Of a DNA stretch of 64,000 nucleotides, positions 15,520 to 49,202 are shown piece after piece. Source of the DNA: Ascidia mentula (Eukaryota; Chordata; Ascidiacea; Phlebobranchia; Ascidiidae); assembly GCA_947561715.1 (NCBI GenBank), contig OX387200.1, positions 19,842,501 to 19,906,500 of the forward strand, in the 5' to 3' direction. A program made the translations under genes and the position numbers. How positions within the stretch are numbered: position 1 is the stretch's first letter; the number at the start of each line of letters is the position of its first letter. The notes under the pieces are model-generated. The model worked only from the letters and a program-made list of their open reading frames with translations, was not told the DNA's origin and did no database searches.

Positions 15520-19856
<4,337 letters not shown>

Positions 19857-20523: not shown

Positions 20524-20679
20524 GCCAATAGTTTGCATGCTCTTTGGGCGGTTTTGCACCTGCTTCTTCCATTGAGTAGAGATAATATAATAGCAGCAAC
20601 TGTTCAGCAAAATACCAAAGTGTAGGTTGGATTGACTTTTCTTGCAGGGTGTCAAATTGTTGCACCAGAATCAGCAGAA

Positions 20680-26145
<5,466 letters not shown>

Positions 26146-26184
26146 ACCACTTTTGTGTTTTATTGACATCGTAACCGGATTGTA

Positions 26185-26190
26185 AATAAA
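26185..26190 (+). terminator. Poly(A) signal of gene B
   Basis: AATAAA 40 bp after the stop, in the same context as that of gene A because the 3' ends are duplicates. Confidence 0.75.
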
Positions 26191-26284
26191 CCTGCATTTA
26201 AAACAAAGTGGCATTTTTTCGTTGTCATAGTCATTGCGAACGAAAATTCTCTGTCACCTCAAAAACAACTAAACTAATGATTGA

Positions 26285-26480
26285 TCGTCACGCCTCGTTG
26301 CCTTGTTATGGGCGCACGGCTCGAATTGTTTTTCGAGACGCGGTTGAAGAAGTTGACTTGAAAGATAAGTTGAAAACCGCAGGTGAGTGTGCAAGGTTTC
26401 CCACCGCAGTTTGTGCGACTTAATGATGTATCCGTGAATTCAGTTGCAGAAAACTTTGCGGTGATGTGTGATAAATGTCG
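26285..26480 (+). pseudogene. Second ninein 5'-end fragment copy
   Basis: Near-exact duplicate of 19996-20190, carried by the 6.29-kb duplication. It keeps exon 1, both splice sites and the decayed start region, and lacks the hAT element. It ends about 490 bp before the gene C start codon. Confidence 0.8.
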
Positions 26481-26969
26481 ACGATAGTTAATAACACGAC
26501 AAATCAAGGTTTCAACTGTATCCAATCACATCATGCTTTACAAATTTGTGTTCAATCGTCACAATTTGCGAAAAGAAATTTGCAGTGGGTCGTTTTCTTG
26601 AATTTAAACGTGGACAAAATGACGCAACGTACAAACGATATCATGACAAATAAAGAAAAATCAACATTCTGAAAAAATCAGGTTTAAATCTCGCACAGGG
26701 CACAATATTCGGATAATCAGGCCTCAAGAAACGTGACACGCTTTAGTGAACACTGCACAGTGCTTGCTTGTTTCCAATGGCCAAAACATCGTGTAAAGCC
26801 TGAGGACATATTAGCCAATAGTTTGCATGCTCTTTGGGCGGTTTTGCACCTGCTTCTTCCATTGAGTAGAGATAATATAATAGCAGCAACTGTTCAGCAA
26901 AATACCAAAGTGTAGGTTGGATTGACTTTTCTTGCAGGGTGTCAAATTGTTGCACCAGAATCAGCAGAA

Positions 26970-29900
26970 ATGCATTTAACGATTGTTACTGGATTGGTAA
27001 TTGTGAAATTTGCTATTTTGTTGGAAATAACGGCAGCTCAAGGTAAGACCGTTTAAACTTTCGAGGCATTTAATTTTTGTTATTCTGTTTACAATCATGA
27101 AAAATCTTTCCTGGGCAACACAAAGTCTTCTTAACCCTTTAAGATTGTCTTTGGTAATTCCTTTGTTATGGGCGTAACGTTATAGTCAACGTTTTGAGGG
27201 CGAATTTGGTCAAAAGTTACCCTAATTCCTCAACTACCAAGAACTTTGCGGGTTGCGCCTGGTTTGGGTACGCAATGGTTGACGGAGATCATATTCATCA
27301 CAAAGCGGAAGTCTTGCTCGGCTAGTTGTTCGTTGTAAGTGCCACTACAGCTGCACTGATGCTACCAGCTGGTAAAAACTGTGGCCCTGTCTGCAGTCCT
27401 TTGTAAAACAGTTTTTGTGCTGGTTATTTCAGTAAGCCAGTAGTACCGCTGTTGAAACGTTAAAACCTGATCGGGATTCGTGCCCAGTACATCCTGGATT
27501 CATATCCCGGTGTGGTAAAAAAAAAACAAAAAAAAAACACCGCGGAAACACTGGCTGTTACTTGTTATAAGTTTTAACAACTTTTTACTTCAGCAAACTG
27601 GAGCAACTGGGGAGAGTGGGGATCTTGCAATGTAACGTGTGGACGAGGAGGGCAAACCAGGACGAGACAATGTGTTGGATCTGGAACTTGTGAAGGAGAT
27701 TCAAGTGAAATAAAAACATGTCTCCATGCCTCTGTTTGCCCGTAAGTTTGCCCTTGCACGCCTAATCTAGTGTATGCTGATAATCAAACAAAGTTAGTTG
27801 ATTCTTTTTAGTTTCAGAAGAACGTATCACATTACTCTGCAAATGTAAAGGAAACATTTTTTTTGCTTTATAGGTGCGTATGTGCAGAATGTGCGGATAA
27901 TTTTCCAATCAAGTGTCCTCTCCAGACTCAATATTGTGGCATCAACTGGTTTGCGTCGTATTGCAAGAAGACATGCAATATTTGCAGTTGCAATTGTGGT
28001 AAGTCACGCTTTGAAAGTTTTTATAATGGGTTTATTTGGTAAAATTTCATGCATTTATACACAAATACTCTCACACAATCATACACAACACTTAAATTTA
28101 AGTTCTAAGATCATTTTAACGAAGTTATGCTTTGTTAAAGCATTTGTTTCGTACGGAGCAAGAGCCCGAAATTTCCAGTATGCTGATGTAGATTATAAAC
28201 TAAAAATTGAAATAAAAGAACTTGAACTGAAGGCTTGACATGTTTGTTTTATTAATATTGAGGTTCCTGGTCAGACTGGTTGGCGTGGGGAAGTTGCCAA
28301 GCAACGTGTGGAAATGGAATGCAAGCCAGAATAAGAACATGTCTGGCAGGTACAACGTGTAACGGACCCGCAAGCGATTCTCGATCCTGCTACAGCCTTC
28401 ATGCCTGCCCAGGTATTCTATAATTGAAAAAAGTTAGGCCTGTATTTGTTTTAATTTGTGAAACCACAAAATTATGGATTTGTTTGTGGTTTAAACGATG
28501 TTAACCATAGTGTCCACCAACAATTTGAGGGACCTCTTGGCTTAATATTTCAGCGACGCCTCGCAGCCGGTTGTGGTTATTTTAACCACAGATTACATAC
28601 CGTTCGGTAAGTTCCGACCGCAGATCCTTGCAGTGCTTTTGCGCGATTGGGTATGAGGCAAAGTTGTTTAATTGCAAAGCAATGTTTTCAGCAAAGGTGT
28701 GGAAGCGCACAGATGTGTGAATGATTTATTGAAATGTTTAGGAATATCCGTTAGCACCTGAAAGCTTTTGGGCTAATACCTGCATTTTTATATGTTTATT
28801 ACTTTCACATGTAATACAATAATGATGGAGATGTTTGTTTGCTTAAAATATAAAAATAGTACTCGAGATATTGCGGTGGATTTCATTTAAGTGCAATTCA
28901 AACAACTGTTGCATTATTCGTATCCGAACTGGACAAAAACAAACTTGCCTGAGTAAAATTTAAACGATAATTCTTTAGAGTGGGTGCAGTGGGGCGAGTG
29001 GAGTAACTGTGGCAGAACGTGTGGTAACGGATCAAAATCACGAACTAGAATCTGCAACAACGGTCCATGCGTAGGTTCTAACACCGAGACAATGACATGC
29101 AATACCCACGACTGTCCATGTAAGTCAACGTGCATAGGCCTGATTCATGTTTTCCTTAGAATCATGATTAGTTTTCATATCGAGTCATTGAAACGATTTT
29201 AAACATCTTGTAAGACATAAAAAAAACTGTGATACCCTGTGACGTTCGTGTTATTTGCATACGCTTTATTGTTGTAATTACAAAAGTCACCAAAGCACCA
29301 AAGTCACCAGAGAAAATACATGAAGGGAAATATTCGTGTTTAGGTCGTTATACGGTTTACAAATAAAAAACTACACGTTTGATATTCTCGCGTGGTCTGG
29401 ACAAACCGGGTTTATGAGTTGTGAGTCAAAAGTAGGTCGAAAATCTGCATTTTGTCTCAGTATTTCATTGTCCAGCACCGTGCTTTCTCTATGAGCAAAC
29501 GCAGCATCAAATGCCCACTCTCTGTTGTTTGTTTATAGCTGCTAGCAATTAGCTTCTCCATATTGAACTATTGTTGAAAATAACTTTGTAGCTTGGACGG
29601 AATGGGGCCCCTGGGGAAACTGCAACAAAACGTGTGGGGAAGGAGAAAGAACACGAAGCAGAACTTGTATGAATGGACCATGCGATACCGGATCCGATAC
29701 TCATACCGAATCTTGCAATGATGGCTTGTGTCCTGGTAAGACTATTGCAAAAGTATATTCTGGGAAAGCTACTTTAGTGTTGAAAGACATGCGATATTTC
29801 TACTCAGTAAATGGAACCTGGGGTCCTTGTTCACGAACATGCGGACAAGGAACAAGAATAAAACGAAATGCAAACGGTAGTGTGGAATACGACGATTGTC

Positions 29901-32900
29901 ATGTCAGACCATGTCCACGACGTAAGTAACTACAATAATAATGGAAAACTTAAAATTCCAATCCATTATAATAATATTGATTGTGCCAATGAAGAGACTG
30001 CGCCATACTGTTGTCAGCATTTTCATTTTTCATGCGTAAAACGTTTCGGCAAGCACTTATGCCATCATCGGATGTCGGATATGATAGTGTAGTAAAAGCA
30101 AGAAACAATGTTTTGTGGCCTGCAAATGGCAAACGGTCGCCCAGAGGTGGAATGATGAAAAGACGTTTCCTTGTACATGTATTGACATGACGCATGATTG
30201 TCCATAAAAATATCAGTCAATCGTAGCTGCATCCTGGTCCTCAGCTAATACGACTGAGTAATACTTTTCTCGTCGGTCGAGTTGTTTTGAACGTGAATTC
30301 TACTAGTGTCGGTCAAACCATATGCAAAGTTTTGCGGTCCAGAGAATCTTTTTTTTTTATTATTAGTTCAAAATTATCGTCGAGATCACCAAGTGACTTC
30401 AAAAATTGTCATATGTACATGCGACACATGCAAAATCGGCACAATCTACCACGAAAAATACAGTCGCTACAATATTTGATAATTTTTAAAATAATTCAGG
30501 GAGATGCATTCCTCCACTAATGCGACGATATTCTGTGAACCAACATTCGTGTTGTGACGCTAAACGTGTTTCTTTTTGTGGAGTGAGTTCAAACCGTGGA
30601 AGAATAATCAATGGAACACAATCCAAAAATCGGCAATGGCCATGGATGGTATGGATGCAAATGTTATAATTTATCAAATCATATTCCAGGACTTATATTT
30701 AATCTGTTAACGTTGTAAACCTCGCAACATTCACACATGGCATTTCGTCTAAACTGGAAAGTGTTATTAGGGTGACACTTGTATTATAGGACGTAATTCC
30801 AATGTCTATATCGCGCTTTAAAGGTGCATCTGAAATTCCTGTTCAGTCAAAAATTTATGTGTGGAGGAATTCTGATCTCAGACTCCTGGGTGTTGACTGC
30901 AGCACATTGTGTCGAGTAAGAATGTTTCGTTAAAGAGTTAGTGGCAGAAATAAACAAAATTTGTTGTCCATGAAAATCCCTAAAAACAGACTTGACACTG
31001 GTGCCTTTGCATCATCAAATGCGACTGACTGATATTGCGATTATTTAATCTATTACGCTGTTGCCTTTTGCAGCAACTCCGCATCTTTTATTATCGCAAG
31101 ATTTGGGGCTCTCCTAAATAGCGAAAACAGAGCTCATGTGCAGGCTAGGTTGGTATATACAAGAATAATTCACCAACTGTACAACAGTACATCTTTCCTC
31201 AACGATATCGCTCTTTTACATGTAAGTGCAAAAAACATTTTCTTAAAAAAAATTTTTGAAAATAAATTATAAAGGAAATTCTTTAAAAAATCGTTTTGGT
31301 TGAAGAACTGAAGTTTTTAAAAACACTGGCGAAATGTAGTTTGATAAGAAAATGCATGGATGCAGAACAACAAGACGTCATTTTGGATTTGACTGAGTGC
31401 TATTGCCTTTTAGCTTGACATTCCAGTCTACATTGATTCGTATGTTCGACCAGTCTGTTTACCACAAGGCGAGGAAGCTTTGACTGACAACATGTGTGTG
31501 GCTACAGGATGGGGTACTGGGGTAGTATAAATTGTAGTTAACAGCTGGTAACGTTGCTTAGCATATTGTACCTAATCAATATTTTCCAAAATACCTATGC
31601 AGTAAATCCTGAGCCAGTGAACATAATGAACGATAGCTGTGATTGCCAAGTAAGTCAAGGAGCCTTTAATGCTCACATTTTGAATTATGGTAGCCCCTGG
31701 ATCACTTCAAACTTCCCACACTTTGATGGAGACTGACCTTCGGATTCTTCCTGTAAATTATTGCAATCAAGCGAAAATGCCGCCAACGAAACCATTTGTG
31801 GGAGAGAAAAATATTTGTGCGGGGGCGATCCGTGGTGGGGTGGACACTTGTCAGGTGAGTTTTTCTCAAATAATCTTTCTTGATGGACAGAATGGCCTAA
31901 AGGAAAGTTATTTTTTATAGTTTATTGATTAAAATTAAATAGACAATACTTTGCACATGGAGGACTGAGTTTAAAAATGTTTTCTAATAAACGAATGCAA
32001 AATACTTTAAGGCGAGTACTATTATTAACTGGGGCCAAGTTTCAATTCATATCAGTAAATGGAAGCGATTTAATACAGCACTGCTAAGAATCGCTTTCAA
32101 AATACCCAAACATGGACAAATGAGTATTACCGATGACTAAATCTAGATTGAGATTTCAGTGTTATTTAGTGAAAAATGCTCATCACCTGATAAAGTAATG
32201 ATACACCATTTACAAGCAGGAAAACAATGGTGGTTCTCTTATGTGTCAACGATGTGCAAACTGTGATTGGTTTGTTGCTGGCATCACTTCGTTTGGACTT
32301 AACTGCGATCAACCGAACCAACCTGGAGTTTACACGAAAATCTCAGCCTACGAGAATTGGATCAAAAATGTTTCTGGTTTAGTACAGACTGCTCGGAACA
32401 TATCTGGAACATGCGAAGGTAATTCAGATAGAATGTGAATATGTCTTCGATAATAAGAATATATATGCAATCAAAAGTTGGAAGCGAAATATAGTTTTCT
32501 GGACCATTAAAACCTTACGTTTGAGAAACACTTGGCTTAGTGAAACTTGTTGTTGTGTAAGTGTGGTTACTGAATAATTTTGCAGCATGGACGGAATGGG
32601 GACCTTGGGGTGCATGCGACAAAACTTGTGGGGACGGAGGAAGAACACGAAGCAGAACTTGTATGAATGGAACATGCGATACCCGATCCAAAGCCAATAT
32701 CGAATTCTGCAACGAAGGCGCATGTTCGGGTAAAAGTTTACGTCAAACATTTTCGATTACTGGTGTTTTTATGATGATCTCACGCAGTCTGGATGACTTG
32801 GAAATCTTGGGGAAGTTGTACAGAAACATGCGGTGGAGGAACGAAATCCAGAACACGAACTTGCCCCAATGAACAGGAATGTGATGGTTCCTCATTAGAT

Positions 32901-35900
32901 GAGCAAGATTGTAACACACAACCTTGTCCGGGTAAGGAATTTGTGAACAAAATTCAACAGCTAAAATTCAACCGCTAATCCCTATAACTACTAACCTTAT
33001 AGCGTAAACATTCGTGAAGTAAGTGAATGTTATGAAAATATTAGAAGTTTCAAATTGAAGTCCCCTGGTTTATTAGTAATATTGAAAAATCGATTTCGCC
33101 TGCTCGAGCATCCTCATTCGTGAAGTATTTGTACATTTATGCACAGTTGCTCGTCAGCGAGGCCAAATATTTGGGACAGAAATATCCCAGTGGAGACCTT
33201 GGGGAAACTGTGATAAAACGTGTGGGGAAGGAAAAAGAACACGAATTAGAGCTTGCACGAATGGATCATGCGATACTGGATCCGATACCGATACAAAATC
33301 CTGTAACGATGGCGGTTGTCCGGGTAAAAACAGACTTGCTGTGAAAACATTGCGATATTTAGTTTCTTATTATGGTATATTAATCTTCGAACTACTTTTT
33401 AATACACGGTAGATGTAGATATAGTTTTACTTACTTACACACTGTTCTGAGTTCTCCCTGATTGTGTCGTTTATTGCCTAGCCAAGAAAATGGCGTTTGT
33501 TGTGGTGAATTTTTTTTAGTTCGAATGCGGTGGTAATCATAAAAACAAAAACATTCGTTGGGAAATTATCCCAACTAAAAATTATGTTTGTAGCATGGAT
33601 GGAATGGGGTTCTTGGGGAAGCTGCGATAAAACTTGCGGAATGGGAGATAGAACACGAAGTAGAACTTGCGATAATGGACCATGCGATACCGGATTCGAT
33701 ACAGATACTGAATCCTGCGATGGAAGCTCATGTCCGGGTAAATACACCTTTGCTTTGTAACCATTCCGATTTCTGTTTTTTCATATTTCAATAACAATAA
33801 AATTTCCTCTTCTGGTTACATTTCGACCTGTTGTAAATAATTTGTCATGACTTACGCAGTGGGAAAAATATAAAAAACAGAAACCTTGTTGGGAAGTTAT
33901 TACGACTTTTGATGTAGTATTAACCTATCACGGTAAATATTGATACTACCTATTTTTGGACATATGATATTTTTATTATGGAACCGTATAAAACATTCCG
34001 TTTTTCGTTGAGTGCGTTTATTGTCCTAACTTTCAAAAGTGGCGTCTTGGACCACGAAGTACAGTTATTGTGTTTTTAGCATGGACGGAATGGGGACTTT
34101 GGGGAAACTGTGATAAAACGTGTGGGGAAGGAGAAAGAACACGAAGCAGAACTTGTGTTAATGGACCATGCAATACCGGATCCGATACCGATGCAGAACC
34201 CTGCGACGAAGGCGCTTGTCCGGGTACTTAAATACCCGTTATGAAACTAATTTCATTTGTATTGTTTAAGCATTTCTTAACAATTAATAATCCTGTGACA
34301 TTGGCAAAAAACATAAACACCATTCAGAATGGTTGATACTGGTGTCCAATTGTTGGCCAGCTAGATAAGTGACATTTGTGGTCATGAATTATTTTTTTAG
34401 CATGGACGGAATGGGGACTTTGGGGAAACTGTGATAAAACGTGTGGGGAAGGAGAAAGAACACGAAGCAGAACTTGTGTTAATGGACCATGCGCTACCGG
34501 ATCCGATACCGATGCAAAATCCTGCGACGAAGGCGCTTGTCCGGGTACTCAAATACCCGTTATGAAACTAATTTAATGTGTATTGTTTAAGCATTTCTTA
34601 ACAATTAATAATCCTGTGACATTGGCAAAAAACATAAACACCATTCAGAATGGTTGATACTGGTGTTCAATTGTTGGCCAGCTAGATAAGTGACATTTGT
34701 GGTCATGAATTATTTTTTTAGCATGGACGGAATGGGGACTTTGGGGAAACTGTGATAAAACGTGTGGGAACGGAGAGAGAACACGAAGCAGAACTTGTAC
34801 GAATGGATCATGTGATACCGGATCCGATGCCGACACCGAATCCTGCAACGAAGGCGCATGCCCAAGTAAATTACATCCTTGTTTAAAATTATTCCCATTT
34901 CTAGTTTTTATTATTTCTTTTCAATAAAATTTCTCTTAGTTACTCCTTTTTGAAGCGATAAAGATGTTTGGAGTGATTTTGTTGATAAAAGTTGGAAACG
35001 TTTCTTCGTTTTTTCATTTATTACCTACTAGACAAATGCGTTGTTATAAAATTGGTTAAAATGTAACTCACAGCATGGACTGAATGGGGACCTTGGCGTG
35101 CATGCGGTAAAACTTGTGGGAACGGAGAGAGAACACGAAGCAGAACTTGCACGAATGGAACATGTGATACCGGATCCGATGCCGACACCGAATCCTGCAA
35201 CGAAGGCGCATGCCCAAGTAAATTACATCCTTGTTTAAAATTATTCCCATTTCTAGTTTTTATTATTTCTTTTCAATAAAATTTCTCTTAGTTACTCCTT
35301 TTAAAGCGATAAAGATGTTTGGAGTGATTTTGTTGATAAAAGTTGAAAACGTTTCTTCGTTTTTTCATTTATTACCCACTCGACAAATGCGTTGTTATAA
35401 AATTGGTTAAAATGTAACTCACAGCATGGACTGAATGGGGACCTTGGCGTGCATGCGGTAAAACTTGTGGGAACGGAGAGAGAACACGAAGCAGAACTTG
35501 CACGAATGGAACATGTGATACCGGATCCGATGCCGACACCGAATCCTGCAACGAAGGCGCATGCCCAAGTAAATTACATCCTTGTTTAAAATTATTCCCA
35601 TTTCTAGTTTTTATTATTTCTTTTCAATAAAATTTCTCTTAGTTACTCCTTTTAAAGCGATAAAGATGTTTGGAGTGATTTTGTTGATAAAAGTTGAAAA
35701 CGTTTCTTCGTTTTTTCATTTATTACCCACTCGACAAATGCGTTGTTATAAAATTGGTTAAAATGTAACTCACAGCATGGACTGAATGGGGACCTTGGCG
35801 TGCATGCGGTAAAACTTGTGGGAACGGAGAGAGAACACGAAGCAGAACTTGCACGAATGGAACATGTGATACCGGATCCGATGCCGACACCGAATCCTGC

Positions 35901-38900
35901 AACGAAGGCGCATGCCCAAGTAAATTACATCCTTGTTTAAAATTATTCCCATTTCTAGTTTTTATTATTTCTTTTCAATAAAATTTCTCTTAGTTACTCC
36001 TTTTAAAGCGATAAAGATGTTTGGAGTGATTTTGTTGATAAAAGTTGAAAACGTTTCTTCGTTTTTTCATTTATTACCCACTCGACAAATGCGTTGTTAT
36101 AAAATTGGTTAAAATGTAACTCACAGCATGGACTGAATGGGGACCTTGGCGTGCATGCGGTAAAACTTGTGGGAACGGAGAGAGAACACGAAGCAGAACT
36201 TGCACGAATGGAACATGTGATACCGGATCCGATGCCGACACCGAATCCTGCAACGAAGGCGCATGCCCAAGTAAATTACATCCTTGTTTAAAATTATTCC
36301 CATTTCTAGTTTTTATTATTTCTTTTCAATAAAATTTCTCTTAGTTACTCCTTTTAAAGCGATAAAGATGTTTGGAGTGATTTTGTTGATAAAAGTTGAA
36401 AACGTTTCTTCGTTTTTTCATTTATTACCCACTCGACAAATGCGTTGTTATAAAATTGGTTAAAATGTAACTCACAGCATGGACTGAATGGGGACCTTGG
36501 CGTGCATGCGGTAAAACTTGTGGGAACGGAGAGAGAACACGAAGCAGAACTTGCACGAATGGAACATGTGATACCGGATCCGATGCCGACACCGAATCCT
36601 GCAACGAAGGCGCATGCCCAAGTAAATTACATCCTTGTTTAAAATTATTCCCATTTCTAGTTTTTATTATTTCTTTTCAATAAAATTTCTCTTAGTTACT
36701 CCTTTTAAAGCGATAAAGATGTTTGGAGTGATTTTGTTGATAAAAGTTGGAAACGTTTCTTCGTTTTTTCATTTATTACCTACTAGACAAATGCGTTGTT
36801 ATAAAATTGGTTAAAATGTAACTCACAGCATGGACTGAATGGGGACCTTGGCGTGCATGCGGTAAAACTTGTGGGAACGGAGAGAGAACACGAAGCAGAA
36901 CTTGCACGAATGGAACATGTGATACCGGATCCGATGCCGACACCGAATCCTGCAACGAAGGCGCATGCCCAAGTAAATTACATCCTTGTTTAAAATTATT
37001 CCCATTTCTAGTTTTTATTATTTCTTTTCAATAAAATTTCTCTTAGTTACTCCTTTTAAAGCGATAAAGATGTTTGGAGTGATTTTGTTGATAAAAGTTG
37101 GAAACGTTTCTTCGTTTTTTCATTTATTACCCACTAGACAAATGCGTTGTTATAAAATTGGTTAAAATGTAACTCACAGCATGGACTGAATGGGGACCTT
37201 GGCGTGCATGCGATAAAACTTGTGGGAACGGAGAGAGAACACGAAGCAGAACTTGCACGAATGGAACATGTGATACCGGATCCGATGCCGACACCGAATC
37301 CTGCAACGAAGGCCCATGCCCGGGTACTTAAATACTGGTTGTGAAACTATTCCCTTTTCTTGTTTTTAATAATTTTTTGCAATAAAAGTTTCTCTTAGTA
37401 GCTCCTTAAAATGCGATAAAGATGTTTGGTGGGATATTGTTGATAACAGTTGGAAATGATTCCTCGTTTTTTTGGTTTCAAGTCGAAAAAAATGTGCTTC
37501 GTTTCTATAGGGTACATAAATTATGCTGCTTTACTCAAAATTTAGATCTTAACCAACATTTGACTCGCCACCTATAGTTTAAGGTAAATGTTCAATTATA
37601 AATACTACACACTCACATGTCGTACTTTTCCTTCATGTCGACTCTATTGAAAATGAGCTCATGTTTAGCCGATGGAAGTTGGGGCCCATGTTCACGAACA
37701 TGCGGACAAGGAACAAGAATAAAACGAAATGTCAACGGGAGTGTAGAATACGACGATTGTCATGACAAATGTCCCAAAAGTAGGTTTCTATCTAATATTG
37801 GCAAAATTTTATTTGTTTCTTGCAAAACGAAAACGTGTACCTGTGCTTGCAACAGAAAAGCATTTTTTTACAAGATACCATTTTACTGTTTAAAATACAA
37901 ACCAAATGTTTTTGTGCATGAGGCTAATTGCATATTTGCATGTTGCATATTTTTTCTGCATCGCAAATGCTAGATGCCGCATGCCTACTTACATATGTAT
38001 TAAGTATTATGTTCACAAACGAAATGATTGTCAGAAACATGCCCTCCACCACTGATACGTCGATACTCGGTGAATCAACATTCGTGTTGCGACGCTAAAA
38101 GCATGCCACCTTGTGGAAGAAGTTCAAACACTGGAAGAATAATCAATGGAACACAATCCAAAGATCAGCAGCAATGGCCATGGATGGTAGAGTACAGAAT
38201 AAAAATTTAAGTCCAAACCTCTAAACCCATTTGTTGGCTTTACTTCTTTATTTCTGTTGTAACGAAACGAATTTCACCGGTGAAAAATTCCTTTTTTGTA
38301 CTAACAGGATGTGCAACAAACGCTATGTGCAGGTCATCGCCTCTATTTGTTTACTTGTTTTGTGTTGATTGTAGGTGCAGCTGACACACACGCAAAGTGG
38401 AGCAGTAATGTGTGGAGGGATGTTGATCTCAGACACTTGGGTGTTGACTGCAGCACATTGTGTGGGGTAAGAATGTTTCTTTGAAAAATTCGTGGCAGAA
38501 ACAAGTAAGCTACTGATATGTCATTTCAGCGCAAAAACTAAAATGAACTACATCAGATAAAGACAGGCACATTTTTCTTCCCAATCTGTGTGCAGTGTCC
38601 ACGTACAAAGATAAATACGTACAAATGTTTTTTTTATTTGCAGAAACAAGAATCTAATACAGGCAAAATTTGGAGTCCTTCAGCAAAGTGCTAACAGCAC
38701 CCACGTGCAGACCAGAAAAATTAATGAAAGCATAATTCACCATCTGTACAACAATGCATCTTTACTTAACGACATCGCCCTTTTAAAAGTAAGTGGTTTA
38801 GAGGAATACATAACTTTGTTACCGCGGAACAGTTTCAAGTTGAAAAGGAACCGCAAAACTTAACGTCAAGTGAGTCTAAACGTTTTTTTACCAAGAGTGT

Positions 38901-41900
38901 TGTATTTTTTTGTACTTATTGGCTTCAATATTATGTCTGTGTTGCCTAACGAGGTTTATGGAACCTTTTATATTTTGTTATGGCACCCTTGGGTTTCGCG
39001 TAACCGACTTCAAAAATCGTTAATGCATATCAACGCACAATAACACATTACGTGAGAGAACGGTTTATCAAAAAGTGAAACCACAAGCACATGCTTCAAG
39101 CCGTTAGTTTTTAAACATTTTCTTTACGGCAATGTTCTAAAATATACCAGTACTGTAAAATATAATTTACTCGCATTTTACGGACAGGAGAATCTTTATT
39201 GCATAAACAAGTTTGTTTTATGACATTCCCCGCGAATAAATGCATCGATGCTGGACTGCAAGAATCTTACTTTATATCTTTTACTTCACTTTATACAATC
39301 CATAGCTTTACAGTCCTGTCTCAATTAGTACGTACGCTCGACCGATCTGTTTACCACAAGGCGAGGAGGATTTGACTGACAACATGTGTGTGGCTGCAGG
39401 ATGGGGCATAGGTAAAAAAAATATTTAAATTACATGCAGGTTTGTCCAGTTTTCGATCTGTTTGCCCAAAGGTCACAATAGAATATTGTGTGATAAGGAA
39501 TAAGATACACTTATAAACCCGGTAAATTTGTCAAAAAACGATTTGCGGTTATCAGTTTGTGAAGGAAGTCTGAATTTTTAGCTGGCCATAAGGAAAGTAC
39601 ATTGTTGTCAAATGAATAATCTGGTACAAGAAACACTATTTGCTTAGACCCAAAATAGGCACGTTGCTTGCATGGTATGGCAGTAATCCTATTTGCGTAC
39701 AAATACTGATAAATAAGTATACCTAATTGATAAACGAAGAACTTCCTAACATTTCAGTAGAATTTTAGCTTACATTTCTTTAGAATCCCATGGGACCACT
39801 AAAACTTCCTACACCTTGATGGAGGTTGATCTTCGGATTCTTCCTGTAAGTTATTGCAATCAAGCAAAAATGCCGACAACGAAACCATTTGTGGAAGATA
39901 CAAATATTTGTGCGGGGGCGATTCGTGGTGGGGTGGACACTTGTCGGGTGAGCTTTTAGAAAAAAACCTACATCGTTGGACAGAATTATTCTTAATTGTA
40001 ACCTTGTAATGTTTTTCGTACAATGTTCACAAATTAGTGGGAATGCGTAGTTATGAACATTGAATGTGCTATTTTGATGAATGCAAAATAATTCTACTCC
40101 GTGTAAATAAAATCTACAAAAGGGCGATAGTGGTGGTCCTCTCATGTGTCAAGGATGGACCAACTGTGCTTGGTTTGCTGTTGGCATCACTTCGTTTGGA
40201 CTTAACTGCGGTCAACCAAACCAACCTGGAGTGTACACGAAGATCTCAGCCTACAAGAATTGGATCAAAAGTGTTTCTGGAGTAGGGGAAGCAGCTCAGA
40301 ACTTATCGAGTAAGTAATGCGTTGGAGAAGAAACCCTTTTCTTGTTTTTAATAATTTTTTGCAATAAAAGTTTCTCTTAGTAGCTCCTTAAATGCGATAA
40401 AGATGTTTGGTGGGATATTGTTGATAACAGTTGGAAATGATTCCTCGTTTTTTTGGTTTCAAGTCGAAAAAAATGTGCTTCGTTTCTATAGGGTACATAA
40501 ATTATGCTGCTTTACTCAAAATTTAGATCTTAACCAACATTTGACTCGCCACCTATAGTTTAAGGTAAATGTTCAATTATAAATACTACACACTCACATG
40601 TCGTACTTTTCCTTCATGTCGACTCTATTGAAAATGAGCTCATGTTTAGCCGATGGAAGTTGGGGCCCATGTTCACGAACATGCGGACAAGGAACAAGAA
40701 TAAAACGAAATGTCAACGGGAGTGTTGAATACGACGATTGTCATGACAGATCATGTCCCAAAAGTAGGATTCTATCTAATATTGGCAAAATTTTATTTGT
40801 TTCTTGCAAAACGAAAACGTGTACCTGTGCTTGCAACAGAAAAGCATTTTTTTACAAGATATCATTTTACTGTTTAAAATACAAACCAAATGTTTTTGTG
40901 CATGAGGCTAATTGCATATTTGCATGTTGCATATTTTTTCTGCATCGCAAATGCTAGATGCCGCATGCCTACTTACATATGTATTAAGTATTATGTTCAC
41001 AAACGAAATGATTGTCAGAAACATGCACTCCACTGATACGTCGATACTCGGTGAATCAACATTCGTGTTGCGACGCTAAAAAAATGCCACCTTGTGGAAG
41101 AAGTTCAAACACTGGAAGAATAATCAATGGAACACGATCCAAAGATCAGCAGCAATGGCCATGGATGGTAGAGTACAGAATAAAAATTTAAGTGCAAACC
41201 TCTAAACCCATTTGTCGGCTTTACTTCTTTATTTCTGTTGTAACGAAACGAATTTCACCGGTGAAAAATTCCTTTTTTGTACGAACAGGATGTGCAACAA
41301 ACGCTATGTGCAGGTCATCGCCTCTATTTGTTTACTTGTTTTGTGTTGATTGTAGGTGCAGCTGACACACACGCAAAGTGGAGCAGTAATGTGTGGAGGG
41401 ATGTTGATCTCAGACACTTGGGTGTTGACTGCAGCACATTGTGTGGGGTAAGAATGAGTGAAAAATTCGTGGCAGAAACAAGTAAGCTACTGATATGTCA
41501 TTTCAGCGCAAAAACTAAAATGAACTACATCAGATGAAGACAGGCACATTTTTCTTCCCAATCTGTGTGCAGTGTCCACGTACAAAGATAAATACGTACA
41601 AATGTTTTTTTTATTTGCAGAAACAAGAATCTAATACAGGCAAAATTTGGAGTCCTTCAGCAAAGTGCTAACAGCACCCACGTGCAGACCAGAAAAATTA
41701 ATGAAAGCATAATTCACCATCTGTACAACAATGCATCTTTACTTAACGACATCGCCCTTTTAAAAGTAAGTGGTTTAGAGGAATACATAACTTTGTTACC
41801 GCGGAACAGTTTCAAGTTGAAAAGGAACCGCAAAACTTAACGTCAAGTGAGTCTAAACGTTTTTTTACCAAGAGTGTTGTATTTTTTTGTACTTATTGGC

Positions 41901-44900
41901 TTCAATATTATGTCTGTGTTGCCTAACGAGGTTTATGGAACCTTTCATATTTTGTTATGGCACCCTTGGGTTTCGCGTAACCGACTTCAAAAATCGTTAA
42001 TGCATATCAACGCACAATAACACATTACGTGAGAGAACGGTTTATCAAAAAGTGAAACCCCAAGCACATGCTTCAAGCCGTTAGTTTTTAAACATTTTCT
42101 TTACGGCAATGTTCTAAAATATACCAGTACTGTAAAATATAATTTACTCGCATTTTACGGACAGGAGAATCTTTATTGCATAAACAAGTTTGTTTTGTGA
42201 CATTCCCCGCGAATAAATGCATCGATGCTGGACTGCAAGAATCTTACTTTATATCTTTTACTTCACTTTATACAATCCATAGCTTTACAGTCCTGTCTCA
42301 ATTAGTACGTACGCTCGACCGATCTGTTTACCACAAGGCGAGGAGGATTTGACTGACAACATGTGTGTGGCTGCAGGATGGGGCATAGGTAAAAAAAATA
42401 TTTAAATTACATGCAGGTTTGTCCAGTTTTCGATCTGTTTGCCCAAAGGTCACAATAGAATATTGTGTGATAAGGAATAAGATACACTTATAAACCCGGT
42501 AAATTTGTCAAAAAACGATTTGCGGTTATCAGTTTGTGAAGGAAGTCTGGATTTTTAGCTGGCCATAAGGAAAGTATATTGTTGTCAAATGAATAATCTG
42601 GTACAAGAAACACCATTTGCTTAGACCCAAAATAGGCACGTTGCTTGCATGGTATGGCAGTTATCCTATTTGCGTACAAATACTGATAAATAAGTATACC
42701 TAATTGATAAACGAAGAACTTCCTAACATTTCAGTAGAATTTTAGCTTACATTTCTTTAGAATCCCATGGGACCACTAAAACTTCCTACACCTTGATGGA
42801 GGTTGATCTTCGTATTCTTCCTGTAAGTTATTGCAATCAAGCAAAAATGCCGACAACGAAACCATTTGTGGAAGATACAAATATTTGTGCGGGGGCGATT
42901 CGTGGTGGGGTGGACACTTGTCGGGTGAGCTTTTAGAAAAAAACCTACATCGTTGGACAGAATTATTCTTAATTGTAACCTTGTCATGTTTTTCGTACAA
43001 TGTTCACAAATTAGTGGGAATGCGTAGTTATGAACATTGAATGTGCTATTTTGATGAATGCAAAATAATTCTACTCCATGTAAATAAAATCTACAAAAGG
43101 GCGATAGTGGTGGTCCTCTCATGTGTCAAGGATGGACCAACTGTGCTTGGTTTGCTGTTGGCATCACTTCGTTTGGACTTAACTGCGGTCAACCAAACCA
43201 ACCTGGAGTGTACACAAAGATCTCAGCCTACAAGAATTGGATCAAAAGTGTTTCTGGAGTAAGGGAAGCAGCTCAGAACTTATCGAGTAAGTAATGCGTT
43301 GGAGAAGAAACTTGCGAAGGTACTTTGGGTGGAATACGAGCATGAGTGCAAAACAGTAGGCGATAAATGGTAGTCTACACTGTGCATCACACCAGCTCAA
43401 TTAGACATCCTTGTTGATCGTAGTGCCAATTCATTGCACAGTGAAAATATATGATAAGTATTCTAAACTTTTTGGTGCAAATCTTTCCACATTACCTATA
43501 GATGTAGTGTCAAAGTCCAGATTTTAGAGAAATAAAAAGACTGGTCCGCCATAATTCACAAAAAATTCTGTGAGTGTGAGTGTGAGTGTGAGTGTGAGTG
43601 TGAGTATATCTTTTCAATCAAATGCAGTTTGTCATGTATCCTTTTGATGTTTTCGTAAGTACTAAATACAACTTTGTAGGTTATTTGTTGCGACTTATTT
43701 TTATCATTAAAACACTACAGCCGGACGTAAGCGAAGCCAAACAAATGGGACAGAAGTTTCTGAATGGGGACCTTGGGGAAACTGCGACAAATCATGTGGA
43801 AAGGGAGAAAGAACACGAAGCAGAACTTGCACGAATGGAACATGCGATACCGGATCCGATACAGAATCCTGCAACGAAGGCGCATGTCCGGGTGTGACAA
43901 TTTTTTTAAAATATAACTTCTATGCTTTACGATATGTGAGTAGTTACACTGCTGTCAGTTATTCTAAAAGCATGTGAGGAAATATATGTATTCGTGATTG
44001 GAGTCTGTCGGAGGTGGATGTTTTCTGCAATCCTTCATAAGGAATTTCAGTTACTGCTGTACTTGTTTTATCAGAGTGTTGAAAGGCCACTTTACCTCTA
44101 AATCGTGCGGTTATATAAGTTCAGAGTACATTGTATTGGCAATGCTTTAGTAAACATTTCACAGTGAGCGATATATTCACCGACCCGAAGTCCTTCTTAG
44201 GCCAGATTCATGCCAACTAGAAATAATTTAAAGTGTGAAAGTTATTTAAAAACATATTTACAAGCAAAGCAATCTGTTGTTTTAGCCGATGGAAGTTGGG
44301 GACCTTGTTCACGAACATGCGGAGAAGGTACCAGAATAAAACGAAAGGCTAACGGAAGTGTGGAATATGACGATTGTCATGTCAGACCATGTCCACGACG
44401 TAAGTTGCTATAACAATAGGTAAAGCAGGTTGTGTAATACCGATGTAATAATTTTATATGAAAGGAAATGTATGTTACATAATTGAAAAAATATATTCAT
44501 ACGTTGAAACTTGTAAACGATTGGCTGCACTAATGTTGTGTATCGTAAGTATTGTTTAAAAATTTAAATATTTTGAAAAGATACAAAATATTTTTCTTCT
44601 CGGCAATGATTTGTTTTTCAGAAACATGCACTCCACCACTGATACGACGATACTCGGTAAATCAGCATTCATGTTGTGTCGCTAGAAATTTGCCTTCGTG
44701 TGGAGTGAGTTCAAACCGTGGAAAAATATTCAATGGAACACAAACCAAAGCTCGGCAGTGGCCGTGGATGGTAACACAGAATTACTTTATAGTTCAAATT
44801 TAAAATTTTGATTTTAAGTTCGATTTTTTGCATGCGGTTTTGTTTCAGCTGTTACGCTTCTCACCTCTTTCAGACAAAACATTTATTTTTAACTCAAGGA

Positions 44901-46701
44901 AGCTGAAAACGCCTTATTTCTCTGTATTAGTGATTTTGATATTTTTCAAAGGTGCAAATCAACTACATGTCAAATGATTTTAAAAACGAATTATTATTGT
45001 GTGGAGGAATCCTGATCTCAACCTCTTGGGTGTTGACTGCAGCAAATTGTTTCGAGTAAGAATGTTTCGCTGAACAGATATTGACAGGAGAGCAAAAAAT
45101 ATTTGATTGGTCGTCAAAGTGAGAATGATAAACCCCACTAAAGCAGAACGGACCCCTCCGTCGCTTCAAGCATTTTTCCCAGCTCGGCATTTCTGTCCTG
45201 TAATCTATACCATATTTTGTTTAGTTTTTACGTGGGTACCCTTAGCTCAGTAAAATAATTAATCTGTTCTTTCGGCACAATTAAACGTATAATTTTACTA
45301 TAGGTATATGCTATCAAACAGCTCTTGGCCGTTTGTATCTGTTGTAAGATTGGGAGCCCTTCTACAAGCGGATGCTGGCGCGCACGAACAACCGTTGGAA
45401 TGGATAAAAAAAATCGTAATTCACCCGCTGTACAACGTCACATCTGCACATAATAACATCGCTCTTATGCAAGTAAGTGGAAGTTAAAGTTTTTCATCCT
45501 TTTTTTGCAGGGCTATATCTGATTTGAAATACATTAAAAACCACATATGTGCACTGAGGTTTTAATTCACACCATACATCTTTAGCTTTACACTCCTGTC
45601 TCTATTGGTTCGTACGTTCGGCCGATCTGTTTACCACAAGGCGAGGAGGTTTTGACTGACAACATGTGTGTGGCTACTGGATGGGGCACAAGTACAAACT
45701 ATTTTACTTTTTTAAGTTCCTGTTTTTTACTTTTTATATATTTAAAAACAGTTGATAAATGTTGGCCTTTTAGAATAGAACATATATCATATCTGCCATA
45801 GCTCGCACTATATGTGCTTCACATCGTTTGTACATACAATTTGTCAGAAAACTTTGGAACAAAGGATTACCCTTTGATGGAGGCTGACCTTCGGATTCTT
45901 CCTGTAAGTTATTGCAATCAAGCGAAAATGCCGCCAACGAAACCATTTGTGGGAGAAACAAATATTTGTGCGGGGTCGAACCGTGGTGGATTTGACTCTT
46001 GTCAGGTGGGTATTGAGGAGTCGGTATTTCTTTAAATAAAAATCCGCCTGTGGAAAAAACCGTTCCCGTAAGTTCTCGTACCATCAGTACGATGTACTTG
46101 TGTAGCTGTTGTGGTTGATGATTGAGCAAATGTGCCACAGGAGTGAATAAGCATCACGCTCAGGCAATAATTGGATTAAAAAGCATCAACATGTGCAGAT
46201 TAATTTGGCGCAATCATTTTTTTACGGTTGAAGAATCTGTTAATGTTATTGGAAAACAAACAAAACTTGTCGATGAGAGTAAAGCTGCCGCTGATCAAGA
46301 AACCTGTAGTTTTTTATTTAGTTGCAACATGCAACGTTTGACAATATTGTTAATATCTGAATTATAATAATATTTTATTTCAAATGAAGTGATTTATAAT
46401 TCATTGCGCATTTTAATATACATATTTTCTGATATTACCCTACCTACAGGGTGACAGTGGTGGTCTTCTTATGTGCCAACGATGTTCAAACTGTGCTTGG
46501 TTTGTTGCTGGCATCGCTTCGTTTGGACTCAACTGCGGTCAACCGAACCAACCTGGAGTTTACACGAAAATCTCAGCCTACGAGAATTGGATCAAAAATG
46601 TTTCTGGTTTAGTACAGACTGCTCGGAACATATCTGGAACATGCGAAGGTAATTCAGATAGAATGTCGGAACACACAGCTCGGAACACAACATGTCAGTA
46701 A
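26970..46701 (+). CDS. Gene C: giant TSP1 protein with four trypsin-like modules (inferred single gene)
   Basis: Exons of the gene B-like part: 26970-27042, 27594-27741, 27874-27998, 28263-28412, 28979-29119, 29592-29735, 29808-29921, 30500-30648, 30824-30915, 31074-31221, 31414-31513, 31694-31854, 32220-32418. Then 14 TSP1 exons (32586 to 37323), module 2 (37669-40309), module 3 (40650-43286), TSP1 43754-43891 and module 4 (44286-46701). All junctions agree in phase; the total is 6,864 nt, 2,287 aa. Domains: signal peptide, 1 ShKT, 19 TSP1, four half-TSP1/linker/S1 units. There is no signal-peptide exon after 26970. Each internal S1 domain ends with a phase-1 donor just before a stop (EG|GTAATT at 32418; CGA|GTAAGT at 40309 and 43286), so the stops may be skipped by splicing or used for shorter isoforms. 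Alternatives: a gene ending at 32438 plus one or more 5'-truncated genes. Modules 1 and 4 lack full triads. Confidence 0.62.
27300..27539 (+). mobile_element. SINE-like composite copy in gene C intron 1
   Basis: Duplicate of 21010-21249 carried by the 6.29-kb segmental duplication, not an independent insertion. Same B-box-like core and A-rich tail. Confidence 0.5.
29808..32438 (+). other. Gene C protease module 1: S1 domain with lost nucleophile
   Basis: Half-TSP1 29808-29921, linker 30500-30648, S1 exons 30824-32418 or to the stop at 32436-32438. His (LTAAHC) and Asp (LNDIAL) are kept. The exon that should start GDSGGP reads ENNGGS at 32220-32237, replacing D194 and the catalytic S195 by Asn and P198 by Ser. 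The rest of the exon ([14 protein letters not shown]) is well conserved, which suggests a folded, inactive pseudoprotease rather than a decayed gene. Activation site GR|IING retained. Confidence 0.8.
32586..33737 (+). other. Four dispersed TSP1 exons of gene C
   Basis: Exons 32586-32729, 32788-32931, 33180-33323 and 33594-33737, each 144 nt and phase 1-1. The second differs in type (WMTWKSWGSC ... CPNEQECDGS) and resembles exons of gene E such as 58550-58693. The others are WTEWGPW/WRPW type with six cysteines. The intron between the first two is only 58 nt. Confidence 0.8.
34080..34721 (+). repeat. 321-bp tandem array: TSP1 exon plus intron, two units
   Basis: TSP1 exons at 34080-34223 and 34401-34544, followed by their introns, repeat with a 321-bp period. 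The next exon (34722) continues the spacing but with the sequence of the 351-bp family downstream. The encoded repeats (WTEWGLWGNC) are nearly identical. Confidence 0.88.
34722..37323 (+). repeat. 351-bp tandem array: eight TSP1 exons with matching introns
   Basis: Exons start at 34722, 35074, 35425, 35776, 36127, 36478, 36829 and 37180. From 35074 on the period is exactly 351 bp. Each unit is one 144-nt phase 1-1 exon (WTEWGPWRACGKTCG ... TRSRTC ... CNEGACP) plus a 207-nt intron. Introns are as conserved as exons, and the middle units look identical, so the array arose very recently or is kept uniform by gene conversion. The last exon ends PCPG with a different donor. Each unit keeps six cysteines, WxxW and CxxTCxxG. 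Confidence 0.95.
37347..40327 (+). repeat. 2.98-kb tandem duplication of a protease module, first copy
   Basis: The stretch beginning CCCTTTTCTTGTTTTTAATA recurs about 2,980 bp downstream at 40328 with very few differences. It carries an upstream intron and all seven exons of one half-TSP1/linker/S1 module. Confidence 0.9.
37669..40317 (+). other. Gene C protease module 2: complete catalytic triad
   Basis: Exons 37669-37779, 38035-38186, 38375-38466, 38644-38788, 39306-39411, 39784-39947, 40123-40309 (stop at 40315-40317 if unspliced). Activation site GR|IING; LTAAHC, LNDIAL and GDSGGP are present. D189 is present; position 192 is Arg (VDTCR), unlike Gln in genes A and B, which may alter substrate preference. 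Half-TSP1 lacks one codon (CHDKCPK). Predicted active trypsin-like domain. Confidence 0.82.
40328..43304 (+). repeat. 2.98-kb tandem duplication of a protease module, second copy
   Basis: Near-identical to 37347-40327, including introns. The left join puts module 2's 3' exon directly against the intron that precedes module 3, with only about 10 bp between. The copy ends shortly after the module 3 stop. Confidence 0.9.
40650..43294 (+). other. Gene C protease module 3: complete catalytic triad
   Basis: Exons 40650-40763, 41019-41167, 41356-41447, 41621-41765, 42283-42388, 42761-42924, 43100-43286 (stop at 43292-43294 if unspliced). Near-identical to module 2 with the full triad, D189 and R192. 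The half-TSP1 keeps the codon lost in module 2 (DRSCPK) and the linker reads TCTPLIRRYS. Confidence 0.82.
43569..43605 (+). repeat. (TGTGAG)n microsatellite
   Basis: About six tandem hexamers TGTGAG/GTGAGT in the gap between module 3 and the next TSP1 exon. Each unit contains GTGAGT, a consensus 5' splice donor. Confidence 0.9.
43754..43891 (+). other. Single TSP1 exon between modules 3 and 4
   Basis: 138-nt phase 1-1 exon, VSEWGPWGNCDKSCG to SCNEGACPG, with two codons fewer than the array exons. Its acceptor side (GGGACAG) matches that of 33180, so both belong to a sub-family distinct from the WTEW array. Confidence 0.75.
44286..46701 (+). other. Gene C protease module 4: S1 domain with His and Asp replaced
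   Basis: Exons 44286-44399, 44622-44770, 44952-45055, 45304-45472, 45586-45691, 45848-46005, 46450-46701. His57 is Asn (LTAANC), Asp102 is Asn (HNNIAL), and the serine motif is GDSGGL. The activation sequence is GK|IFNG instead of GR|IING. All structural cysteines and the PGVYTKIS segment are kept and the frame is open, so a pseudoprotease is more likely than a dead gene. The domain ends in a unique tail (GTCEGNSDRMSEHTARN) before the stop. Confidence 0.82.
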
Positions 46702-46749
46702 TGAAACTACGTGTGTTATGTTTACATGGGTGCTCACTGCCGGAATGTT

Positions 46750-46755
46750 ATTAAA
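46750..46755 (+). terminator. Poly(A) signal of gene C
   Basis: ATTAAA about 50 bp after the stop, followed by the CCTGCATTTAAAA context that also follows the poly(A) signals of genes A and B. This supports 46701 as the true end of the gene. Confidence 0.6.
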
Positions 46756-46844
46756 CCTGCATTTAAAAACGAGTTTAGCATTTTGTGGATTAACAATTAC
46801 TCTGTCCTCAACCAAGATTAACTTTCCAATTGCCATCAGTTTAT

Positions 46845-47020
46845 GCCTTTGCGTTTGAGGTTTTTCTTTTTTTTGACCACACCGGGGTTTGAACCCAACC
46901 CAGGATGTCCTGAGCACGAATCTCGATCAGGTTTTTTTCTTAGTGTGTGGTTCGGGCCCTTGACCAATGCTGCCAATCACCCGCATGCAGCTAAAGTTTT
47001 CCCGGTTAAGCCTCTCTGGG
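46845..47020 (-). mobile_element. tRNA-derived SINE-like element, minus strand
   Basis: Read on the minus strand: an A-box-like region (TTGGCAGCATTGGTCAAGGG), a core CCTGATCGAGATTCGTGC, a B-box-like GGTTCAAACCCCGG, then TGTGGTC and an A-rich tail. The core and tail match 21181-21249. Intergenic, downstream of gene C. Confidence 0.55.
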
Positions 47021-49202
47021 GTTATCGGAGAAGTTCGACATCAAGTGACGTGTACAAAAATATCACTGTGACCGCAAGGTGGAGCAATTGGTAAAGTCGA
47101 AAGAAATTTCTGATTTGCGGTGATTCTATTTCGAATAACCAAGCTCCGAAACAGAGTGTGGAAATAAATTTTGACCCGGGTTCGTAGAAAAGCTGAAGCA
47201 CTAACCCAAAATGTACTTTTGTAAATGAGCAAACAAGATATATTAGTCATCAGGGTAGGTTTACCGAGGCCATGCATCTTCTAATCTTACAATTTTAGAT
47301 TCCTGAATATTCACCCATTTATCCATGCGTTATAAGTTTCATACGAAATAAGTTTTCTATGTGTTGAACTGTATTCGATCGTTAAACATTATAAAAATGA
47401 CCAATATTAAAATCAAGTCAACACTCTTAACAAATCATTATCAAGTCTTATATTTTGGAAACCTTAAAATATTCCAGAGCAAAATATTTCAGGCTGACAT
47501 CGCCATTCCTTCAGGGTGACAACGGTTTGTTTGTTTTCGGTTTAAATTTTTAAGGGAATTGTGTTATATAGCTCACTTAGTTAATCAAAATAAAAGAAAG
47601 TACTGCAACCAAATTATTCTAATCATTTTCCTCTCACGAAACTGCAAAGGATTACGTCACTGGAAACTTATGTGCGTTAACAAGCGGTTTCTTCCTGTCA
47701 CAGCGAATATCTGATGTATTTTTATACCCGGTTTGTAATGGTTCGTGTAAATATATTCCTGGGATGGATTGACGAATAACGTTTGTCGTAAAAATGTCCG
47801 CTTCGTTATAGCAACAGGAAACGCCTGCTACTAAATCGTGATAACAAAATTATAAATTTACCCACGTTCTTTGAGGCCGCTTGAAACACGTGTTGACGTC
47901 AAAATAATGACAATTTTCCGAAACATCGTGCCATCGCTAAATATTTTGCATGGTTATTTTGTCTTTTTAAGACTTCGAAAACTATTTATAAATGAAAATT
48001 TTCCGAAAACATCGTTCGGTGAAATCGAGGCCTTTTAAGTGCCTCCAGGCATTCATTGTCATGGCGAAATAAGTAGTTAGGGAAAGATTTTGAAATGGTT
48101 AAACGTTGAATTTGAAAACTAAATAAAAAGTTAGTATTTTCACATGTAGCCTTTGTTTTAATGTGGATGGGGTAAACCGATATCATTACAAGTGATTCGA
48201 AATTGGTTTGATTCGACGGCCTTCGTGGCATTATTGTAAGGTGTGGTGGGGAAAGTGTCCACATCGCGAATGATTCGACAAGTTTTACCGACCTTACTTT
48301 AAAGCGGCATGCGGTTTGGTAATAATTGGGGTCTAATTAAGGCTTTAGCTGCTTCGAACGTAATTGCATAATTGCGATTAAAGTAACTACAGCGAAATTG
48401 GTCGGTTTCTGGAAAGTGCTTCAACGTTGGTAAAGTAGGAAAGCAACACTCAACATCAAAGTAGTTTTTGGCCAAAACAAAGCCTTATGTCTGCAGGCTA
48501 GCGACAGGGACGGGATAAACTGGTTTATTGCCAAGTTTCTACAAACAGGCTTGGTGTCGACGCTGCAAGACGTGCTACATACGTAAGCGGAAGAAAAACT
48601 ATTTCTACTGTCACCAAAAAGCAGCTTTGGTCTTCGACTATTGTACAGTCACTAAAGCTGCACTAACGAGACCGAAGAGGTCGAAACAGTGGCCCTATAT
48701 GCAGTTCACTAAACACAAATTATCGGTTTCAGATAAACATCCAAACAAACATTGTATTTAACAGAAGAGAGCTTAGCATAAATCCTAAGCATCAATATGA
48801 TGCTTTTTGAGTGGCATAACGTACTGGAAACACTACGTGCATGGTTCTTTAGCAAGATATGACAAAATCGGGGCAAAATTTCATTGACACGCATGTAACG
48901 TAGTGACGTCAAAACATAATGACCAAAATATCAAAGTGTTTTTTGCGCCTCGAGGTTTTAACTATGATGATGTTCGTGCGTTGCCGCCGGCGTTTGTCGG
49001 AATTCAGGCGCGCGATCTCTCACGGCGGTGAACGGAAATGCAGATGAAAAAAAATGGGAAAAAAGAATTCTGTGACGTAGTTTGTGAGGCTGGCATTCAC
49101 ATGCTGCTAGCCAGAAGAGCGTTTTAAGTGTTTGAGGGTACCTTCTGTTAGTAACCTAGGTGTCTACGTATTAAGGTACTTACTTATACTGTTTACAAAG
49201 AA
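47021..49202. other. Intergenic region before gene E
   Basis: I see no coding region in these 2.2 kb. A foldback-family remnant is near 48630-48712. A locally GC-rich stretch near 48975-49035 (with GCCGCCGGCG and GGCGCGCGATC) lies about 200 bp before the gene E start and may belong to its promoter. No convincing TATA box was found. Confidence 0.5.
48630..48712. repeat. Foldback-family remnant
   Basis: AAAGCTGCACTAACGAGACC and GGTCGAAACAGTGGCC match the right part of the 5943-6200 element and the 53195-53405 copy. Both ends are missing. Confidence 0.45.

Follow-up and report, generated by a model that had tools for sequence, protein, structure and literature searches.

The 49 exons at positions 26970-46701 (+ strand) of the window, by which we mean the whole analysed stretch of 64,000 nt (C67:19842501-19906500 within a 195.8-Mb genome), probably belong to a single gene within a TSP1/S1 protease cluster, which would encode a secreted chain with four S1 domains; we put the probability of this reading at roughly 0.6. 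It is favoured by the counts of signal exons and 3' ends, by strong splice donors where they are needed, by the organization of a second cluster and by distant relatives in the same genome. An initial annotation of the window had proposed a single secreted polyprotease in which two S1 domains are active and two are not, and this is still the best-supported reading, albeit that internal donors of B and E are weak, that in-frame stops lie 8-20 nt past the junction donors and that weak signal-like ORFs are present.

Exon model and domain content

An exon-by-exon rebuild confirmed the total of 6,864 nt, including the stop codon, and sets the length of the predicted chain at 2,287 residues (earlier given as about 2,290) with no internal stops; all exons are open and have GT-AG borders. 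The junction donors (32418, 40309 and 43286) and acceptors (32586, 37669, 40650, 43754 and 44286) that had been proposed are all present in the sequence. The total is indeed a multiple of three, as had been put forward in favour of one gene, but this carries little weight: each module is a phase 1-1 unit, so that divisibility by three is nearly forced. The order of the modules is signal - TSP1 - ShK-like - 3 TSP1 - S1(B) - 14 TSP1 - S1(C) - S1(D) - TSP1 - S1(E), with a short TSP1-like module before each of the four S1 domains. The features are as follows (a slash marks an exon border or a cleaved bond).

26970-27042, + strand: signal-peptide exon of B (25 residues), phase-1 donor AAG/gtaaga; A (20680) and Z (15520) have exons like it
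27594-27741, + strand: TSP1_1 (Pfam TSP_1)
27874-27998, + strand: ShK-like exon of B (PF01549)
28263-29735, + strand: TSP1_2 (28263-28412), TSP1_3 (28979-29119) and TSP1_4 (29592-29735) (Pfam TSP_1)
29808-29921, + strand: short TSP1-like module of B (exon model)
30500-32418, + strand: S1 domain B, six exons (30500-30648, 30824-30915, 31074-31221, 31414-31513, 31694-31854, 32220-32418), predicted inactive; weak donor after 31513
32419-32585, + strand: B to TSP1_5 junction intron, donor GAAG/GTAATT; in-frame TGA ends at 32438
32586-37323, + strand: 14 TSP1 exons, TSP1_5 to TSP1_18, with TSP1_12 to TSP1_18 within a 351-bp array
37669-37779, + strand: short TSP1-like module of C (exon model)
38035-40309, + strand: six-exon S1 domain C with a complete triad; predicted active
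40310-40649, + strand: C to D junction intron, donor CGA/GTAAGT; in-frame TAA ends at 40317
40650-40763, + strand: short TSP1-like module of D (exon model)
41019-43286, + strand: six-exon S1 domain D, nearly identical to C; predicted active
43287-43753, + strand: intron at the junction from D to TSP1_19, with an in-frame TAA ending at 43294
43754-43891, + strand: TSP1_19 (Pfam TSP_1)
44286-44399, + strand: short TSP1-like module of E (exon model)
44622-46701, + strand: S1 domain E, six exons, terminal, predicted inactive; weak donor after 45691, stop TAA at 46699-46701
46702-46784, + strand: 3'UTR stretch of E, similar to those of A and Z; ATTAAA 48 nt past the stop

The four S1 domains and 19 TSP1 repeats that had been read from the sequence are borne out by Pfam: the Trypsin profile matches B (5.4e-52), C (1.5e-61), D (1.2e-61) and E (3.8e-53), and TSP_1 matches four stretches in B, 14 in the middle block and one before E. 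Of the four short TSP1-like modules in the model, a single query of mixed C and D residues scored 20.7 bits against a TSP_1 cut-off of 21.6. The B unit thus has TSP_1 and Trypsin matches above the cut-off and an ShK match below it (19.7 bits against 20.9); it is one of two such sub-threshold matches among the three ShK-like exons tried, the profile giving no match to that of Z. Domains C and D contain TAAHC, NDIALL and GDSGG, which in meaning and numbering we take to be the motifs of the His/Asp/Ser triad, i.e. they combine the domain and the triad by which S1A trypsin-like peptidases are assigned, whereas the complete triad is absent in B (ENNGG for GDSGG) and in E (TAANC at the His position and NNIALM at that of the Asp). 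C and D are therefore predicted to be active and B and E to be inactive. The predicted peptide at the C to D junction is AAQNLSTDGSWGPC.

The gene cluster and a second cluster on the minus strand

The cluster in and around the window (cluster 1) comprises seven S1 modules, Z, A, B, C, D, E and F, of which Z, A and F belong to genes with one S1 each. Gene F (49203-64227) ends just past the window and has its signal exon at 49203, an ShK-like exon, 21 TSP1 hits before the S1 domain and an intact triad; in the next 19.8 kb searched after it no family match was found on the + strand. A second cluster (C67:19976001-20056000, minus strand, units at about 19.98-20.04 Mb) contains five pairs of an active and an inactive S1 domain, arranged in five copies of the unit signal exon - TSP1-like - S1 active - TSP1s - TSP1-like - S1 inactive. 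A sixth unit has the same signal exon followed by TSP1s and an inactive S1, with no active S1 between, and the cluster also holds two extra partial inactive S1 ends.

Splice donors beside the stop codons

In 20 S1 modules we recorded every GT within the 39 nt that precede the in-frame stop; donor scores, like the hydropathy scores given below, are simple measures (a generic matrix for the donors) and not the output of trained programs. A phase-1 donor scoring 6.0-9.5 lies by the stop in all eight modules that directly precede TSP exons (B, C, D and the five active ones of cluster 2), and none above 0.2 is found in the 11 terminal modules (Z, A, F, eight inactive ones of cluster 2 of which two are partial). 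The modules are paralogs, so this comparison comes down to about three lineages on either side: B, C/D and the active modules of cluster 2 on the one, and A/Z, F and the inactive modules of cluster 2 on the other. Module E is not a clean terminal control, because it has a phase-1 donor of 5.2 by its stop and because the donor sequence of B (score 9.1), which in E stands 53 nt before the stop and thus beyond the 39 nt scanned, reads as exon there. The stop of gene F adjoins a GT (CGAG/GTATAA, phase 0, score 3.5), though F is terminal. By way of a baseline, which is rough because stop and donor positions are partly linked, such donors occur in 13 of 1,553 coding and in 602 of 20,000 random 39-nt stretches. 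The earlier statement that every S1 module ends with a phase-1 donor before its stop accordingly holds for B, C and D, and fails for the neighbours A and Z.

The active S1 domains of cluster 2 end in SSCEG (four) or SSCKG (one) followed by a phase-1 donor GTATGT or GTATAT, and in this respect resemble B (GTCEG/GTAATT). A relic of the same kind is seen after the in-frame TAA of D, where the same frame (43295-43325) reads ETCEG with a donor TGCGAAG/GTACTT at 43320, resembling the junction donors of B and of cluster 2.

No donors in the model score lower than the S1d donors inside domains B (1.6) and E (1.2). Both A (25258-25275) and B (31510-31526) lack a GT at the position used by Z, C and D and have a weak in-frame GGG/GTACTG instead, while E does have the GT.

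Stop codons, 3' ends and poly(A) motifs

The in-frame stops past the donors of B, C and D follow after 20, 8 and 8 nt, respectively, and in an ungapped alignment with A the TAA of C and D falls one codon short of A's own stop, because of which it may still be a real stop. We consider it unlikely, but the best surviving alternative, that these are composite terminal exons: B would then mostly yield a product ending at 32438, with the exons further downstream confined to a minor long isoform, or several nested isoforms would be made. The closeness of donors and stops would fit this, as would the alignment of C and D with A and the fact that terminal exons (Z, A, E, F and the eight inactive ends of cluster 2) stop one or two residues past a Cys, a Cys-then-stop arrangement that the active ends of cluster 2 (CEGM or CKGI) and B resemble. 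A stop near a donor is, however, nothing special: among the other phase-1 donors, nine out of 28 are followed by a stop within 18 nt. We consequently discarded the immediate stop, taken by itself, as an indication of a designed switch.

The sequences beyond the stops also speak against composite ends. The 3' tail of A matches that of Z (98% of 144 nt) and that of E (72% of 109 columns, 1.5e-10), and its matches to B, C and D end inside the exon or reach no further than its stop codon (42, 59 and 59 nt); nothing like the 3'UTR of A, Z or E was found after B, C or D. Among B to E it is thus E alone that carries the 3' tail and 3'UTR of the single-S1 neighbours A and Z. The 3'UTR of E by itself also has a weak match at positions 50031-50088 in the region of gene F (69% of 59 nt, 5.6e-4).

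Poly(A) motifs do not help to place gene ends. The initial annotation had noted the lack of an AATAAA before the next TSP1 exon, which is correct for the gap after B, but one is present in the gap after C (40363, 46 nt past the stop of C and within a copy of the TSP1_18-to-C intron) and another in that after D (43531). Since 23 of the 48 introns of the model contain the motif, it is uninformative, and we rejected it as evidence on gene ends. In cluster 2 an AATAAA follows the stop of the inactive S1 at 92 nt in all six full copies and that of the active S1 at 233-256 nt in all five.

Signal exons and the possibility of separate genes

Signal exons were sought on the + strand between 15,000 and 64,000 as an ATG with a hydrophobic stretch (hydropathy of at least 2.3) and a phase-1 donor scoring at least 3. 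Five hits resulted, i.e. the signal exons of Z, A, B and F and a fifth that was taken as false, as it runs into a TSP1 exon of F. There are consequently four family-type signal exons (ending in QG, AAG/GT) for the seven S1 modules of cluster 1, and none on the + strand within 27,046-46,701 in this strict scan. In addition, the upstream-plus-signal region of A matches, within the window, only Z (15,181-15,597) and B. Judged by the matches of the upstream and signal regions and of the 3' tails, B to E have a single recognisable 5' end and a single recognisable 3' end.

The absence of a further signal-peptide exon, as claimed earlier, thus stands at the strict threshold; with the hydropathy cut-off lowered to 1.0, 11 weaker candidates appear in 27,046-46,701 (19.7 kb), and it is possible that some of these signal-like ORFs serve as starts. 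C, D and E might then be independent genes, or cistrons of an operon that is trans-spliced to a spliced leader (SL), whose 5' ends go unrecognised. This we regard as distinctly improbable. The candidates that would suit it best are an ATG ORF (hydropathy 1.14) that is continuous with the first module of C and of D, and one in the gap between D and TSP1_19 (43622, hydropathy 1.65, donor 3.6); two ORFs of higher hydropathy (2.17; at 37422 and 40403) have no qualifying phase-1 donor. Against separate genes, family-type signal exons are absent before C, D and E, the 167-nt gap after B contains no ATG-started hydrophobic ORF, and the loose candidates are no denser inside than outside the locus (12 in the 12.0 kb of 15,000-27,046 and 12 in the 17.1 kb of 46,701-63,800).

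Cluster 2 bears on the same question. There the signal scan picked out six exons of the family type and six other hits, with none of the 12 in the five gaps between an active S1 and the following TSP1s, and there is one family signal exon per active/inactive pair. Those gaps do contain a signal-like ORF, M[AP]IILLVVSSQSFCASAADYTIPPA, in five out of five copies, and a second ORF (MTFVEPSYN...) in three of the five, both of which would fit separate genes. We first took the former for a conserved signal exon of separate genes and then set it aside, because ATG and frame are lost in the diverged sixth unit and no phase-1 donor of at least 3 follows the ORF.

A broader argument for cistrons comes from the genome as a whole. 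The 16-mer published as the Ciona spliced leader (PMC7986045) occurs 2,157 times, against zero for the reversed control, and the host looks like an SL-using ascidian. About one fifth of Ciona genes are described as residing in operons, which are often wrongly predicted as fused genes (PMC2760879). In the four SL copies read, a GT follows in all four and the published Sm motif AGCTTTGG is found within 60 nt in none. Among the matches listed, the 16-mer occurs in runs with a spacing of 719-720 bp at C1:15239666-15297871.

Distant relatives

The one-gene reading is also favoured by a more remote locus (C67:16986001-17006000) with two S1 domains that have long TSP1 runs at 136 and 125 nt downstream. 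Phase-1 GT-AG introns of 84 and 76 nt can be read at the two junctions, so that in these relatives S1 and TSP1 appear to be joined by splicing; in the second of them the S1 frame stays open well beyond the donor. At a third distant locus the gap from S1 to TSP1 is 292 nt and contains stops. From the junctions of the distant relatives, an S1 domain followed by TSP1 repeats in one chain thus seems ordinary in this genome. ShK-like hits occur at two places in C67:16986001-17006000.

Duplication history and selection

The cluster bears marks of tandem duplication: A and B go back to a duplication of 6,290 bp and are 93.9% identical across 5,830 aligned columns, C and D go back to one of about 2,980 bp and are 98.8% identical across 2,985, and TSP1_12 to TSP1_18 lie in a 351-bp exon-intron array (34720-37472) of which six complete units are 99.1-100% identical and of which the copy number is perhaps variable between individuals. 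The end of S1 B (32309-32436) and that of S1 E (46539-46666) are identical over 128 nt, a stretch that spans the donor of B and ends just before its TGA; to judge from the sequence this is a recent gene conversion or duplication. In a tree of 18 modules C groups with D and A with B, followed by E and Z, while F groups with the inactive modules of cluster 2 and the active ones of cluster 2 stand apart.

Pairwise dN/dS values, which are averages over both branches, are 0.40 for C-E, E-A and A-B and 0.44 for C-A, where the comparisons with A cover 215-233 codons, the last S1 exon of A being left out. The inactive modules of cluster 2 have higher values (0.58-0.82); in comparisons with the active ones silent sites are near or at saturation, and C and D differ by too few changes (3 and 5) to judge. 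That the TSP1 block and some of the S1 copies are unexpressed remnants of a recent tandem duplication, or that their order is partly an assembly error, is very improbable, for, although the near-identity of C with D and of A with B, the lost active site and weak donor of B and the 128 nt shared by B and E would suit decay, all exons are open with proper borders, the pairwise dN/dS within cluster 1 is about 0.4 and the window contains no N.

Proposed origin and function of a four-S1 chain

If B to E are one gene, the locus would have grown by tandem duplication of phase-1 modules, of which the internal copies would have lost their recognisable 5' ends and 3'UTRs and would splice onward by way of a phase-1 donor beside the old stop codon. 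Shorter isoforms are also to be expected, because a donor that is left unused leads into the in-frame stop and ends a shorter product. In its most specific form, which we put forward tentatively, the locus would encode a tetra-S1 polyprotease (pseudo - active - active - pseudo) with 19 TSP1 repeats, in which the donor by each old stop acts as a splice-or-stop switch that yields nested products with one to four protease domains, and the active/pseudo di-proteases of cluster 2 would have evolved by the same route.

In such a chain the TSP1 arms may bind matrix or cell-surface sugars and so hold it in the extracellular matrix or on the cell coat. C and D would be trypsin-type zymogens activated at R/IING; this sequence and the Asp before TCRGDSGG, both of which are read in the C/D translation, are presumably marks of that type. 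A cysteine in the prosegment could keep each nicked protease tethered, B and E may be binding or regulatory pseudoproteases, and fertilisation, the tunic or immunity are candidate settings of action.

The finding, if true, would constitute a polyserase-like chain that exceeds in size the human ones with their two or three S1 domains and that arose by the fusion of neighbouring genes through donors beside their stop codons, and hence a clear case of the origin of a multi-protease chain in which possible intermediates stand side by side, namely the single-S1 genes A, Z and F, the di-S1 repeats of cluster 2 and the tetra-S1 locus. It would also bring working and inactive proteases together in a single molecule rich in TSP1, which would open the role of the pseudoproteases to testing.

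Comparison with known systems

Both ShK-TSP1-trypsin units and tandem-S1 chains have already been published. Human polyserase-1, -2 and -3 have several S1 domains per chain, some of them catalytically dead, and for polyserase-2 and -3 secretion as an undivided chain is described (PMC1435904), in agreement with the earlier remark that tandem S1 domains in one chain occur. In that respect they are like the chain proposed here; they differ in having two or three S1 domains and, in the description of PMC1435904, no TSP1 or ShK, whereas here four S1 domains lie between TSP1 arrays. Polyserase-3 was moreover cloned from cDNA (PMC1435904), whereas the B to E chain is predicted from an open 49-exon genomic model.

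In cnidarians, the Ap_Trypsin-like TSR protein is described as having two ShK domains, four TSP1 repeats and a C-terminal trypsin in one chain (PMC5446238). Gene A looks like a unit of the same kind. The earlier remark that no described protein with this TSP1/ShKT arrangement was known thus needs qualification for the single unit; for the multiplied form, the searches made in an open-access library gave no description of a chain of four S1 domains with TSP1 arrays. The cnidarian protein has one S1, whereas in the present locus several such units occur, which the modelled splicing, if real, would fuse.

Ascidians themselves have TSP1-bearing proteases on their sperm (PMC9265791), i.e. the tunicate Tasts, which are described as astacin metalloproteases with TSP1 repeats encoded by five genes, four of which are contiguous (PMC9265791) and as located on the sperm surface (PMC11673157). 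They differ from the present proteins in being astacin metalloproteases and not S1, and in being type II membrane proteins.

Among solved structures, the best matches of the S1 domain of C/D are the S1A proteases enteropeptidase, acrosin, prostasin and plasminogen (7wqx, 2.3e-50), which have one S1 per chain and other accessory modules.
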